A stretch of DNA of 64,000 bases from Candidatus Manganitrophus noduliformans (GTDB lineage Bacteria; Nitrospirota; Nitrospiria; SBBL01; Manganitrophaceae): contig NZ_VTOW01000001.1 of NCBI RefSeq assembly GCF_012184425.1, positions 744,001 through 808,000 on the forward strand. The letters are read 5' to 3'. Position 1 is the first letter of the stretch; every line of letters starts with the position of its first letter. Shown piece after piece: positions 16,339 through 60,612 of the stretch. Made by a program: the position numbers and the translations under genes. Below the pieces are notes generated by a model. It was not told where the DNA came from. It saw only the letters and a program-made list of their open reading frames with translations, and did not search any database.

Positions 16339-17496
16339 TTATGGGTGTCTTTTATCGGGTTGTGGTGAACGGTTCACCACTTTTCCCAGGTCCGGCAGGA
16401 AGTGAAAGTAGTTTTTTAAGACTGTCTCGATCCGGTCCCCCATCGTTTGTGCGACCCAGGCCGGGGAGCGTCCCTGAGTGAGTGCGATGGTGGCGAAGGT
16501 GTGCCGGGTGGAATACATCTCCCGCCGGCGGAGATCCGCTTTCTTCATCCATTTGTGCCAGACGTGTTTTGAGAGATATTCCTGATCGAGGGGTAAACCG
16601 TTCGGCCGGCAGAAAAAAAGATCGTGGTCGGCTTTGATCTTCTTTCGAATCTTCATCCATCGAAAAAGGGCAGCTTCGACCCCCGGCTCCATGTCGATGG
16701 TTCGCTGTCCGCCGTCCGTTTTGGTCGGCCCCTCCTCGCCGCGGACGATCGCATTGTAAACCTCGATCCTCTTGTAAGCAAAATCGAAATTCTTCTCCCG
16801 GAGCGCAAGCTGCTCGGACGGCCGCATTCCGGTGTGAAACTGGATAAAGAACCAGGGTTCGTAAAACGGATCTACTGTACAAAGATACAGGTCTCTTTCG
16901 GCCTCGGTACAGAAGGCCAACGGACGGCGCCGGTTGGCCCCTGAGAAGCGGGGAATCGGGAAGTCGATCTTTGCCGTCTTCAACATCATTCGAAGAACGA
17001 CAAAGGTGTACTTCATCGTCCTGGGAGAAGCCTTCTGGTCAACGAGCTTTTTCTTGAGCGCTTCGGTAATCCGGTCGACACTCTCTGAAAACTGGAAAAG
17101 GGGGGAGTCTCCGAAGAGCGGAATCAGGTAAAAGTTTGTGATCGAGGTATAGGATTGATGGGTGGAGAGACGCAGCTCGGGCGGCGCTTTCTTTTTCAGC
17201 CACTCCTCGGCGTGATCCCGGAAGACCCGCGGGCCCCCCGGTTTAAACAGCTTTGCCTTGTTCCCCTGGGGGAAGTGGCGAAGATAGGAAAACTCCCCGG
17301 CATCGATCTCATGGGTGATATCGCGGACCCACTTCTCGAGCGCTTCGAACGCGCGAGGATCGTCGGGGATGAAGGTGTCGCCGGATTTCTTCGCGCGGAT
17401 CTTCGTTCCCTCGCAACACTGGATCAGCTTACCGGCGACCTTCACGCGGAAGCGGATCGAGAGAAAACCATGATGATTGAGGACGAGGTAGGCCAT
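16339..17496 (-). CDS. int: phage integrase, tyrosine recombinase family
   Basis: 385 residues. N-terminal arm- and core-binding domains (to about residue 175) precede the catalytic domain. Catalytic residues seen: R225 in HTGMRPSEQL, R331-H332 in STRHTFATIA, and nucleophile Y363 in LKNYFHF. The first His of the usual HxxR box is replaced by Tyr (YSTR). It would recombine the phage with the tRNA-Lys 3' end that lies next to it. Its start is preceded by the stop of the lipoprotein gene at 17501, suggesting co-transcription leftward with the lysogeny genes. Confidence 0.93.
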   Translation of the reverse strand: MAYLVLNHHGFLSIRFRVKVAGKLIQCCEGTKIRAKKSGDTFIPDDPRAFEALEKWVRDITHEIDAGEFSYLRHFPQGNKAKLFKPGGPRVFRDHAEEWLKKKAPPELRLSTHQSYTSITNFYLIPLFGDSPLFQFSESVDRITEALKKKLVDQKASPRTMKYTFVVLRMMLKTAKIDFPIPRFSGANRRRPLAFCTEAERDLYLCTVDPFYEPWFFIQFHTGMRPSEQLALREKNFDFAYKRIEVYNAIVRGEEGPTKTDGGQRTIDMEPGVEAALFRWMKIRKKIKADHDLFFCRPNGLPLDQEYLSKHVWHKWMKKADLRRREMYSTRHTFATIALTQGRSPAWVAQTMGDRIETVLKNYFHFLPDLGKVVNRSPQPDKRHP

Positions 17497-18066: not shown

Positions 18067-18549
18067 TCATCTTTTCCCTCCATGCGGCTCCCGCCGGCGG
18101 GCTCCCCGGATGATGTCGTAGGCTTCGAGCGTCATCCTACGTATATTTATGGGTTGCTTCATAATATCCACCATGAAAAAATCGGAGATTTCCGTAAGGC
18201 GATTGTACGGAGATTCTAGGAGTGCGTATTCTGCATCAGTATATTGTCTTTGTTTTTGAGTGTTTGGAAACTGGATAATTTTTGCTTCCGGACCGTATGA
18301 GAAAAACCTTGAAGAAATAAAGACTTTTCCGGAGTATGTATATGCCCTTAATAAATCTTGTCGAAGCTGGTCAACAGATAGGTCAAGCTCGTCTGCCTTT
18401 AGAAAGGAGGCCAATTCGATAAGTTGGTTTATCGAGCCTTCTTTTCGTTGTCTTTCTTCGGCTGATTCGATTTCTGAGGGGTGGGCTGTGGCTGTCCGAA
18501 ACCCCTCAAACGTAACGCTTCTTCTGCTCTTTTCGCTTGTTCTATCCAT
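18067..18549 (-). CDS. unknown protein overlapping the repressor gene end
   Basis: Up to 160 residues. The first 40 residues are encoded in the out-of-frame 3' end of the repressor gene (120-base overlap) and look like shadow sequence. The convincing part begins near KEGSINQLIELASFLKADELDLSVDQL. The protein has no Met after the first before that point, so the true start may be a non-ATG codon near 18430, or the frame may be reached by frameshifting. The rest is helical and charged with no recognised domain. Confidence 0.55.
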   Translation of the reverse strand: MDRTSEKSRRSVTFEGFRTATAHPSEIESAEERQRKEGSINQLIELASFLKADELDLSVDQLRQDLLRAYTYSGKVFISSRFFSYGPEAKIIQFPNTQKQRQYTDAEYALLESPYNRLTEISDFFMVDIMKQPINIRRMTLEAYDIIRGARRREPHGGKR

Positions 18550-18953
18550 CCGCTTATTACCTCCGGTCGCTGATTTGGTGGGACCTTCTCAAGCAACATC
18601 AAAAAATTCGGACTAAGCGTGATCTGTTTTTCACCTGTGGCGAGATATCGGCCGTAGGATAGCCACTCTTCCCGCCTTCCTTTTTCCGAGACGAGATCCG
18701 CGATCTCTTTGACCTCCGTGTCGATTGCCTCGGGCGTCACCTCCTTTCCAAGTAGAAGCCAATCAATCGAAACCCCTGATGCTTCGTGGATTTTAAAAAG
18801 AGTTTCCCCTCCTGGGATGCTGCTTCCATCGATATACCGCTGAAAAGTTCCTGGGCTTATCCCGGCAAGACGCGCGAGTCTACCCGGCTTTCCTTTGAAC
18901 TTTTCAGCGATAAGAAGTTTTAGCCTTTCTGTAAGCCCTTGAATAATCTGCAC
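18429..18953 (-). CDS. HTH-type (XRE/CI-like) phage repressor
   Basis: 174 residues from a GTG at 18953. The N-terminal helix-turn-helix is clear (GRLARLAGISPGTFQRYIDGSSIPGGETLFKIHEASGVSIDWLLLG). A linker helix region and a Pro/Gln/Lys-rich tail follow (QPQPTPQKSNQPKKDN). There is no LexA-like Ser/Lys peptidase, so induction by self-cleavage is not expected. It is transcribed away from a divergent early promoter that carries two matching inverted-repeat operators. The ribosome site before the GTG is weak. By position and domain this is the lysogeny repressor. Confidence 0.85.
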   Translation of the reverse strand: MQIIQGLTERLKLLIAEKFKGKPGRLARLAGISPGTFQRYIDGSSIPGGETLFKIHEASGVSIDWLLLGKEVTPEAIDTEVKEIADLVSEKGRREEWLSYGRYLATGEKQITLSPNFLMLLEKVPPNQRPEVISGWIEQAKRAEEALRLRGFGQPQPTPQKSNQPKKDNEKKAR

Positions 18954-19721: not shown

Positions 19722-20501
19722 ATGAAATTCGAGATTAAATCACGATGGGACGGCTCGGTACTATTTTCGATTGAAACGGAATCATGGAGGCTGGCTGTTG
19801 AGGCGGCCCTTAAAGCAAGGGCGAACCTCCGCTATGCGGACCTCCGCTCTGCGAACCTCCGCTATGCGGACCTCCGCTATGCGAACCTCAGCTATGCGAA
19901 CCTCCGCTCTGCGGACCTCAGCTCTGCGGACCTCAGCTATGCGGACCTCCGCTCTGCGGACCTCAGCTCTGCGGACCTCAGCTATGCGGACCTCAGCTCT
20001 GCGGACCTCAGCTCTGCGGACCTCCGCTCTGCGGACCTCAGCTCTGCGGACCTCAGCTCTGCGGACCTCAGCTCTGCGGACCTCAGCTCTGCGGACCTCA
20101 GCTATGCGAAAAACCTTTCCCCGTTTCTTTGTACTCCTCTTTTGATGTTGTTGGATCAACCCGGAAAGATTAGGGCCTACAAACTCGTTAATGCCGATGG
20201 TGAGGGGCCATACAACGGCGGGATCAAATACGAGATGGACGGTGAATATTCAGAGAAAAAAGCGAACACAGATCCGAACAAGCATTGCGGAGCCGGGATT
20301 AATCTTGCCACGCTCGATTGGTGCATGAAGGAATGGAGAGAAGGGTACAAGATTCTAATAGCCGAATTTACAGCAAAAGATATCGCCGCGATTCCGACCG
20401 GAACAGACGGGAAGTTCCGATGTAAGAAAGTCAAAATTGTCGGAGAAGTGGATTTAAAAAAGATCGGTCTGGTTAAAGAAGCGGAAAAGGTGCGGCCATG
20501 A
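19722..20501 (+). CDS. pentapeptide-repeat protein with a conserved C-terminal domain
   Basis: 259 residues. After a 33-residue start come 19 uninterrupted pentapeptides of the A(D/N)LxX type (residues about 34-128). These should form about five coils of a right-handed quadrilateral beta helix. A C-terminal domain of about 125 residues follows (GKIRAYKLVNADGEGPYNGGIKYE...CGAGINLATLDWCMKEW), of the kind found after pentapeptide repeats in phage proteins. Some pentapeptide proteins mimic DNA and protect gyrase; whether this one does is unknown. The repeats are almost identical at DNA level. The next gene overlaps its stop by four bases. Confidence 0.8.
   Translation: MKFEIKSRWDGSVLFSIETESWRLAVEAALKARANLRYADLRSANLRYADLRYANLSYANLRSADLSSADLSYADLRSADLSSADLSYADLSSADLSSADLRSADLSSADLSSADLSSADLSSADLSYAKNLSPFLCTPLLMLLDQPGKIRAYKLVNADGEGPYNGGIKYEMDGEYSEKKANTDPNKHCGAGINLATLDWCMKEWREGYKILIAEFTAKDIAAIPTGTDGKFRCKKVKIVGEVDLKKIGLVKEAEKVRP
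19821..20105 (+). repeat. 19 tandem 15-bp repeats encoding the pentapeptides
   Basis: The unit is GCG(G/A)ACCTC(C/A)GCT(A/C)T, repeated 19 times without a gap. Only three of 15 positions vary across all copies, giving D/N, R/S and Y/S choices. Because 15 is a multiple of three, other frames are open too, but they code only for the repeat shadow. Confidence 0.95.
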
Positions 20502-20764
20502 AGAAATTGACAATCGAGGAGGCGGCTGAACTAACTGACGGGCTTTATAAACCCGCCACTCTTCGGTACTTCATCAAGCGCAAGATTCTTCGCCGGATCA
20601 CCGTTCCTGGGGGTGAGGGGGAGTTTATAAAAGTTGGCACCGGGAAGTCTTCCCCGGTCCGGATCATCGAAGAACGGTTTCGAATTTGGCTGCACAAGAG
20701 AACGTATCCGGGGGATGAAGCCGATCGGCGCGGTGTGCCGATGGCAGCGGTGGGACGAAGATGA
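20498..20764 (+). CDS. small excisionase/MerR-like DNA-binding protein (putative)
   Basis: 88 residues. The start LTIEEAAELTDGLYKPATLRYFIKRKIL has the spacing of an excisionase-type winged helix-turn-helix. A Gly-rich wing and a basic C-terminus follow. It overlaps the pentapeptide gene by four bases. An excisionase role is possible but not shown; the structured RNA element begins right after its stop. Confidence 0.5.
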   Translation: MKKLTIEEAAELTDGLYKPATLRYFIKRKILRRITVPGGEGEFIKVGTGKSSPVRIIEERFRIWLHKRTYPGDEADRRGVPMAAVGRR

Positions 20765-20769
20765 AAAGT

Positions 20770-20942
20770 GTTTTGCGGATTGAGGGGGGAGATAACCACA
20801 TGGACCCGTCATCCAGATGTGGAAACCTGAACCTCATAGGGCTACCTGGCTCCCACAGTGAGGTCAACAATAGCCCAGGGACACGAGAAGGGAAGGGGAG
20901 TGACGACCTCGCCCGACTCGTGCCCCGCTCAATCCGCAAAAC
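20770..20942 (+). ncRNA. candidate structured RNA, family unknown
   Basis: A 15-bp perfect stem encloses the whole element: GTTTTGCGGATTGAG (20770-20784) with CTCAATCCGCAAAAC (20928-20942). Inside are CCACAT/ATGTGG (20796-20801 with 20817-20822), ACCTCA/TGAGGT (20831-20836 with 20859-20864), and CACGAG/CTCGTG (20882-20887 with 20917-20922, extended by GGG/CCC around a bulged A). The loop of the second hairpin holds GGGCTA (20839-20844), complementary to TAGCCC (20871-20876), so a pseudoknot can form. It sits between two genes and just before the J-domain gene. No known class is recognised. Strand is assumed from the operon. Confidence 0.65.
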
Positions 20943-20963
20943 CTTCTTTCTGTGGAAATAACC

Positions 20964-21599
20964 ATGACCCTCTACGAAGAGCTCGAAGTGGAAAAAACAG
21001 CGACCCCGGAAGAGATCAAAAAAGCCTATCGGAAGAAGTCGAAGCAGGTTCATCCGGATCATAACCCGGACGATCCGAAGGCGGCGGAGAAGTTTGGCGA
21101 GTTAACAAAAGCCTACGACATCCTCATTGATGAAGAGAAGCGGAAGCGGTACGACGCCGGCGAAGATCCGGACGCCATGAGGAACATGAAGACGCCGCGG
21201 GATATGGCGGTTCATGCGGTGATGAACCTCTTCTCTCAGGTGATCGAGCAGGTAGACGAGAATCACACCGACATTTTCAGCGTGATGAAAGAGAGGGTCC
21301 ATAACAACATTTCGAAATTCAAGGGTGAGATTAAGAGAGGGGAAAATCAGATCAGAAAATACCAATCTGCCATGAAGCGAATTTCCCACAAGAAGAAATC
21401 CCAGGAGAACATTTTTATTCAGTCGCTCGAAGCGCAGATCCGGAGCGTTGAGGGTGGGAAGGCTCAATTCGAAGAGCAGATCAAGATTGCCGAAATCGCC
21501 CTGACGATCATCGATGACTACAAGTATCAGGTGGATGAGGATCTGCCGACCTATGGGCAGCCCATGAACCGCTTCACCATCGGAGGAATCTGGCGATGA
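20964..21599 (+). CDS. J-domain (DnaJ-like) phage protein
   Basis: 211 residues from the ATG at 20964 (an in-frame GTG at 20952 is less likely). Residues 1-65 are a complete J domain ([25 protein letters not shown] at 30-32, [15 protein letters not shown]). A long charged, coiled-coil-rich C-terminus follows instead of Gly/Phe and zinc domains. J domains stimulate Hsp70 ATPase, so the protein may recruit host DnaK to a phage process such as replication or assembly. It lies directly downstream of the structured RNA element. Confidence 0.85.
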
Positions 21600-43446: not shown

Positions 43447-43510
43447 GGGTACCCCCACAAAGGCCCCTTGAATGTCCGGTCGCATGATCGGTGTTCAAGG
43501 GGCCTTTTTT
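43447..43510 (+). terminator. leader-terminator cassette T1
   Basis: GGGTACCCCCACAA (43447-43460) runs into AAGGCCCCTTGAA (43460-43472), which pairs with TTCAAGGGGCCTT (43494-43506) and ends in a T-run. A textbook rho-independent terminator preceded by a short conserved leader shared with three other cassettes. Confidence 0.85.
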
Positions 43511-43527
43511 AGTTTAAAGGAGAAAAA

Positions 43528-53805: not shown

Positions 53806-53888
53806 TAATTCGATAATTTAACAGGGTACCCACACAACGGCCCCTTGGAAACACCGAGAAATCGGCTTCCAAGGGGCTTTTTTATTTT
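53806..53888 (+). terminator. leader-terminator cassette T3 with upstream AATTATCG repeats
   Basis: AATTATCG (53790-53797) and CGATAATT (53811-53818) flank the entry. GGGTACCCACACAA (53824-53837) leads to GCCCCTTGGAA (53840-53850), pairing with TTCCAAGGGGC (53867-53877), then a T-run. A CCGA/TCGG mini-stem lies inside. Same family as T1, T2 and T4. Confidence 0.8.
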
Positions 53889-60522: not shown

Positions 60523-60598
60523 TTCGATAGACCGATAAAAAGGGCACCCCCACCAAGGCCCCTTGAGACCGAGAGATCCGGAATCAAGGGGCCTTTTT
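60520..60598 (+). terminator. leader-terminator cassette T4
   Basis: TAATTCGATA (60520-60529) lies upstream. GGGCACCCCCACCAA (60542-60556) leads to AAGGCCCCTTGA (60555-60566), pairing with TCAAGGGGCCTT (60584-60595) and a T-run. The best-matched partner of T1. Confidence 0.85.
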
Positions 60599-60612
60599 AT
60601 TTGGAGTGAGAC

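Follow-up and report, generated by a model that had tools for sequence, protein, structure and literature searches.

In bacteriophage T7, the early RNAs are cut from a large precursor by RNase III (Dunn and Studier 1973, as cited in PMC5371410). A second precedent is provided by the intervening sequences (IVS) of rRNA, in which RNase III cuts helices of the kind described here that frame an insert; the IVS of Coxiella is 428 nt long, and its helix comprises 28 bp with one mismatch and one bulge (PMC4990558). The element that we describe in a prophage operon of Candidatus Manganitrophus noduliformans resembles each of these systems in part. Like the T7 early-gene sites, it is a double-helical element between probably co-transcribed phage genes in a host that possesses RNase III (one gene), whereas the T7 sites are short hairpins and the helix of the element is predicted to close a branched interior of 143 nt. 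To our knowledge, the RNase III sites of phage mRNAs are simple hairpins, and never a helix around an interior of that size. As in the bacterial 23S rRNA IVS, terminal inverted repeats frame an insert and form one long helix, which in the IVS is cut by RNase III. However, the IVS are found within 23S rRNA genes, that of Coxiella exceeding the element in length, whereas the element lies in a phage operon.

The window, that is, the whole stretch of 64,000 nucleotides that was analysed, contains the element at positions 20770-20942 (173 nt), and these coordinates were confirmed. Its 5' arm (GTTTTGCGGATTGAG, 20770-20784) and 3' arm (CTCAATCCGCAAAAC, 20928-20942), both read on the + strand, are fully complementary and form the perfect 15-bp closing stem reported in a preliminary description of this DNA. 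In the predicted fold, the closing helix consists of 15 + 4 bp with a single G.G mismatch between them, the four inner pairs joining GGGG (20786-20789) to CCCC (20923-20926). When the wider mRNA context is folded, AAG (20766-20768) and CTT (20943-20945) add three pairs past a bulge. The closing helix is the only 15-bp inverted repeat within 220 nt in the entire window, and 29 of 30 dinucleotide-shuffled windows had no such repeat. The 15-bp closing stem exceeds chance, in agreement with the earlier judgement that a chance origin was very unlikely.

The whole element folds with a predicted energy of -80.5 kcal/mol (z = -6.04), and none of 200 shuffles was equally stable. When 1064 + strand windows of 180 nt are ranked by fold extremity, the element comes second, after one at 43.4-43.5 kb that contains an ordinary terminator hairpin. 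Folds of similar quality are obtained for the minus strand (z = -5.50) and for single-stranded DNA (z = -6.13); the fold alone is therefore silent on the acting strand and on whether RNA or DNA is concerned. The closing helix and hairpin 3 (20882-20922) account for the excess stability, and the remaining interior is near chance. Without the closing helix, the interior has z values of -1.59 (133 nt) and -2.19 (143 nt), to which hairpin 3, pairing CACGAG with CTCGTG, contributes most (z = -3.71 over 20878-20926). Hairpin 1 (20796-20822, z = -1.16) is by itself within chance, and the region of hairpin 2 (20839-20876), in which GGGCTA pairs with TAGCCC, has z = -1.85. The three internal stems of the preliminary description were thus recovered on the + strand, but the z values show that its many nested stems are mostly expected of a sequence of this kind, hairpin 3 excepted.

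The element belongs to a genuine prophage, which comprises an integrase (16339-17496), a repressor on the minus strand (18429-18953) and, from 19056, a rightward gene series with replication genes, a terminase, a head-tail adaptor, a portal-family protein and a major head protein. It sits in the densely packed, co-oriented rightward operon between an 88-aa gene (20498-20764, + strand) with no family match and a 211-aa J-domain gene (20964-21599, + strand; DnaJ, PF00226, E 2.8e-24) whose Shine-Dalgarno sequence is weak. The phage context and the J-domain neighbour were correctly recognised in the initial reading. A 66-aa frame crosses the element on the + strand (20761-20961, internal ATG at 20800), its start ATG overlapping the upstream stop codon and its TAA lying 2 nt ahead of the J-domain ATG. 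Its codon use (-0.11 to -0.16 bits/codon) is that of non-coding frames (-0.18 for wrong frames, versus +0.21 for the phage genes); a coding gene was rejected on this ground, and the element is taken as non-coding.

Two further features of the same prophage were observed. The gene at 19722-20501, in which a 15-nt unit occurs 19 times, encodes a pentapeptide-repeat protein (PF00805), and the C-terminal part of this protein resembles DUF7666 and PHROGs proteins annotated as RIIB lysis inhibitor. Terminator-like hairpins at 43447-43515, 53824-53880 and 60542-60600 have the common upstream motif GGGTACCCNCACAANGGCCCCTTG and are each followed by a T-run. The third copy of the motif has 2 mismatches, and the chance expectation is 0; the three hairpins form a terminator cassette that recurs between modules of the prophage.

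Relatives of the element were sought at several levels. The Rfam 15 families, searched over the whole window at gathering and lax thresholds, gave nothing above gathering and only chance-level matches (E 2-10). DNA similarity searches in the same genome and 197 relatives returned the element itself only, and blastn against phages and plasmids found nothing beyond it. A single-sequence covariance model likewise retrieved only the element from 247 and 396 genomes, in scans with stricter filters, which lose weak matches. Since no homologue was found, no covariation is available. Related phages, sought through the neighbouring proteins, gave distant or isolated matches, none of them demonstrably syntenic, and copies of the closing-helix arms elsewhere in the window, as expected of a repeated operator, were not above chance. 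A scan for the repeat-arm pattern matched one chance-like stretch in viral contigs and 54 stretches in genome contigs, which were chance matches or unrelated long palindromes from Bacteroidetes, Bdellovibrionaceae and a coding region in a Nitrospira. The element stands alone, without relatives, as a genuine and well-bounded inverted repeat whose interior is modestly structured.

Two groups of inverted repeats met in these scans deserve a separate mention. In the Bacteroidetes MAG JAIUPL01, long near-perfect palindromes that start TTTTGCGGAT..GCGGAT occur on several contigs (L081, 4694-4860; L066, 3843-4005; L084; L090) and constitute a separate repeat family unrelated to the element. The Bdellovibrionaceae MAG JABJQG01 (L051, L071 and L080) carries repeated inverted-repeat elements with ends GTGCCAGGCATCTTTTGCGGATGC, arms of 24-28 bp and differing interiors.

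We tentatively favour, with a probability of about one in three, the reading in which the operon mRNA would carry the element as a cis-acting double-stranded processing site of the RNase III type. In this view, the folded segment between two genes of the rightward operon would remain untranslated, and a polycistronic mRNA would be transcribed across it. The host RNase III would recognise the closing helix, and the cleavage would detach the message for the J-domain gene from that of the upstream genes and release a short folded RNA, the element serving in cis as a signal for processing or stability. This proposal rests on the helix and fold beyond chance, the extended helix in the mRNA context, the position in the operon, the non-coding codon use, the RNase III of the host and the precedents in T7 early RNAs and rRNA intervening sequences. 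A double helix of about two turns, as is sought in an RNase III site, is present in the predicted fold (15 + 4 bp and three further pairs). The proposal is weakened by the lack of a homologue, by the simple-hairpin form of the known phage sites and by the unchanged accessibility of the J-domain start, for which the computed values were 0.476 in the native sequence and 0.482 in shuffled ones, with no occlusion effect from the element. The same observations bear on the earlier suggestion of a functional or regulatory phage RNA: the phage setting stands, but the function finds no support in homology, in the near-chance interior or in start accessibility. An intrinsic terminator was rejected, as previously argued, because no G+C hairpin followed by a T-run is found at the element.

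Nearly as likely, and placed slightly lower, is the insertion of a small DNA element bounded by terminal inverted repeats of 15 bp, either MITE-like or similar to the 23S rRNA IVS, that would be neutral between the genes, the fold being a by-product. The perfect terminal repeats are as expected of a MITE, and the codon use is atypical. Moreover, the gap around the element amounts to about 200 nt in an operon where adjacent genes overlap or almost do, and a mostly near-chance interior also suits an insert. However, a MITE is expected to have several copies or a related transposon in the genome, whereas the element is present in a single copy, with none elsewhere in the genome, the 197 relatives, the phages or the plasmids. 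No target-site duplication is seen either, as the flanks AAAAGT and CTTCTT have no direct repeat in common, and the collection scan for the repeats yielded just chance matches and palindromes unrelated to the element.

It is unlikely that the element has no function and arose in the spacer by chance or by a recent inverted duplication. The single occurrence without relatives and the near-chance interior would fit such an origin, but perfect 15-bp arms are rare by chance, as seen in the shuffled windows (1 of 30).

We consider somewhat less probable still two readings of equal standing. In one of them, a short leader ORF would run from the ATG at 20800, behind GGGGGGAG, or from that at 20761, to the TAA at 20961, and the ribosome would melt the fold and couple the translation of the J-domain gene. 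The frame is open throughout and the J-domain gene has a weak Shine-Dalgarno sequence of its own; in addition, a Shine-Dalgarno-like motif (GGAG, 20788-20791), overlapped by the GGGG of the inner helix, and the internal ATG are partly paired. The short spacing to the J-domain ATG would also favour coupling, as short spacing does (PMC12548453). Against this, the codon use is non-coding, no protein relative of the 66-aa frame was found, and a frame open across the element, which occurs in 8.5% of shuffles, is unremarkable.

In the other, the element would be a self-standing phage non-coding RNA of an undescribed class that acts in trans and may contain an H-type pseudoknot. The z value of the whole fold and the lack of an Rfam match speak for it. 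The preliminary description had proposed a pseudoknot from a loop-to-downstream complement, and the complement between GGGCTA (20839-20844) and TAGCCC (20871-20876) does exist, but taken alone it corresponds to a nested hairpin of the minimum-energy fold. An H-type pseudoknot requires a second stem, for which ACCTCA (20831-20836) and TGAGGT (20859-20864) are available; with loops of 2, 14 and 6 nt, the geometry of the candidate is good, and of 2000 shuffled interiors only 15 contained a 6+6 bp pseudoknot as good as this one. The energy of the subregion was -16.7 kcal/mol with nested pairing and -14.6 kcal/mol with ACCTCA/TGAGGT forced and no second stem, the latter value describing the forced stem without the pseudoknot and hence not a pseudoknot energy. 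The pseudoknot is sterically possible, but the computed energies do not prefer it over nested pairing. A scan for the pseudoknot-core pattern matched six viral contigs, all unrelated. A trans-acting RNA is further disfavoured by the failure to find a promoter-like site or terminator at the element and by the covariance-model scans, which retrieved no relatives.

The most specific form of this idea, in which an undescribed phage RNA class that combines an H-type pseudoknot with three hairpins and a long closing helix would be excised from the operon mRNA to act in trans, is quite improbable. The phage c4 antisense RNA is excised from the transcript of an operon. It is listed among the structured RNAs of phages (PMC2864571), and the element would resemble it as a structured phage RNA, but the Rfam model of c4 (RF01695) gives no match here.

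Other known classes fared worse. A type III toxin-antitoxin RNA (ToxI) was rejected, as there is no tandem repeat and the neighbours are the 88-aa orphan and the J-domain gene, not an endoribonuclease toxin. The core boxes at the ends of an integron attC site read RYYYAAC ... GTTRRRY, and attC was rejected because the ends of the element read GTTTTGC ... GCAAAAC. A retron msr-msd RNA, or another reverse-transcriptase or transposon guide RNA, is scarcely credible: the ends are complementary over 15 bases with hairpins inside, as in retrons, and at the inner end of the a1 stem, where retrons have the priming G in an AGC-like site, the minus strand reads GAGC, a known variant (PMC6868368), and the + strand GAGG, but no Rfam model matches, the window lacks a reverse transcriptase, and the three PF00078 reverse transcriptases of the genome lie on other contigs (C4, C7 and C9) and are group II intron-like. 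The initial view that the element resembles no riboswitch, retron, tmRNA or CRISPR element and has no reverse transcriptase or nuclease gene beside it is borne out by the empty Rfam result and the identity of the two neighbours.

Ordinary explanations suffice for the element. Most probably it is a small insertion or a local structure for processing of the mRNA, and not a recognisable new class of RNA. As an RNA acting in trans, it would represent an additional class missed by sequence libraries. If it is a processing site, it would constitute an uncharacterised example of phage mRNA processing in a little-studied bacterial lineage.
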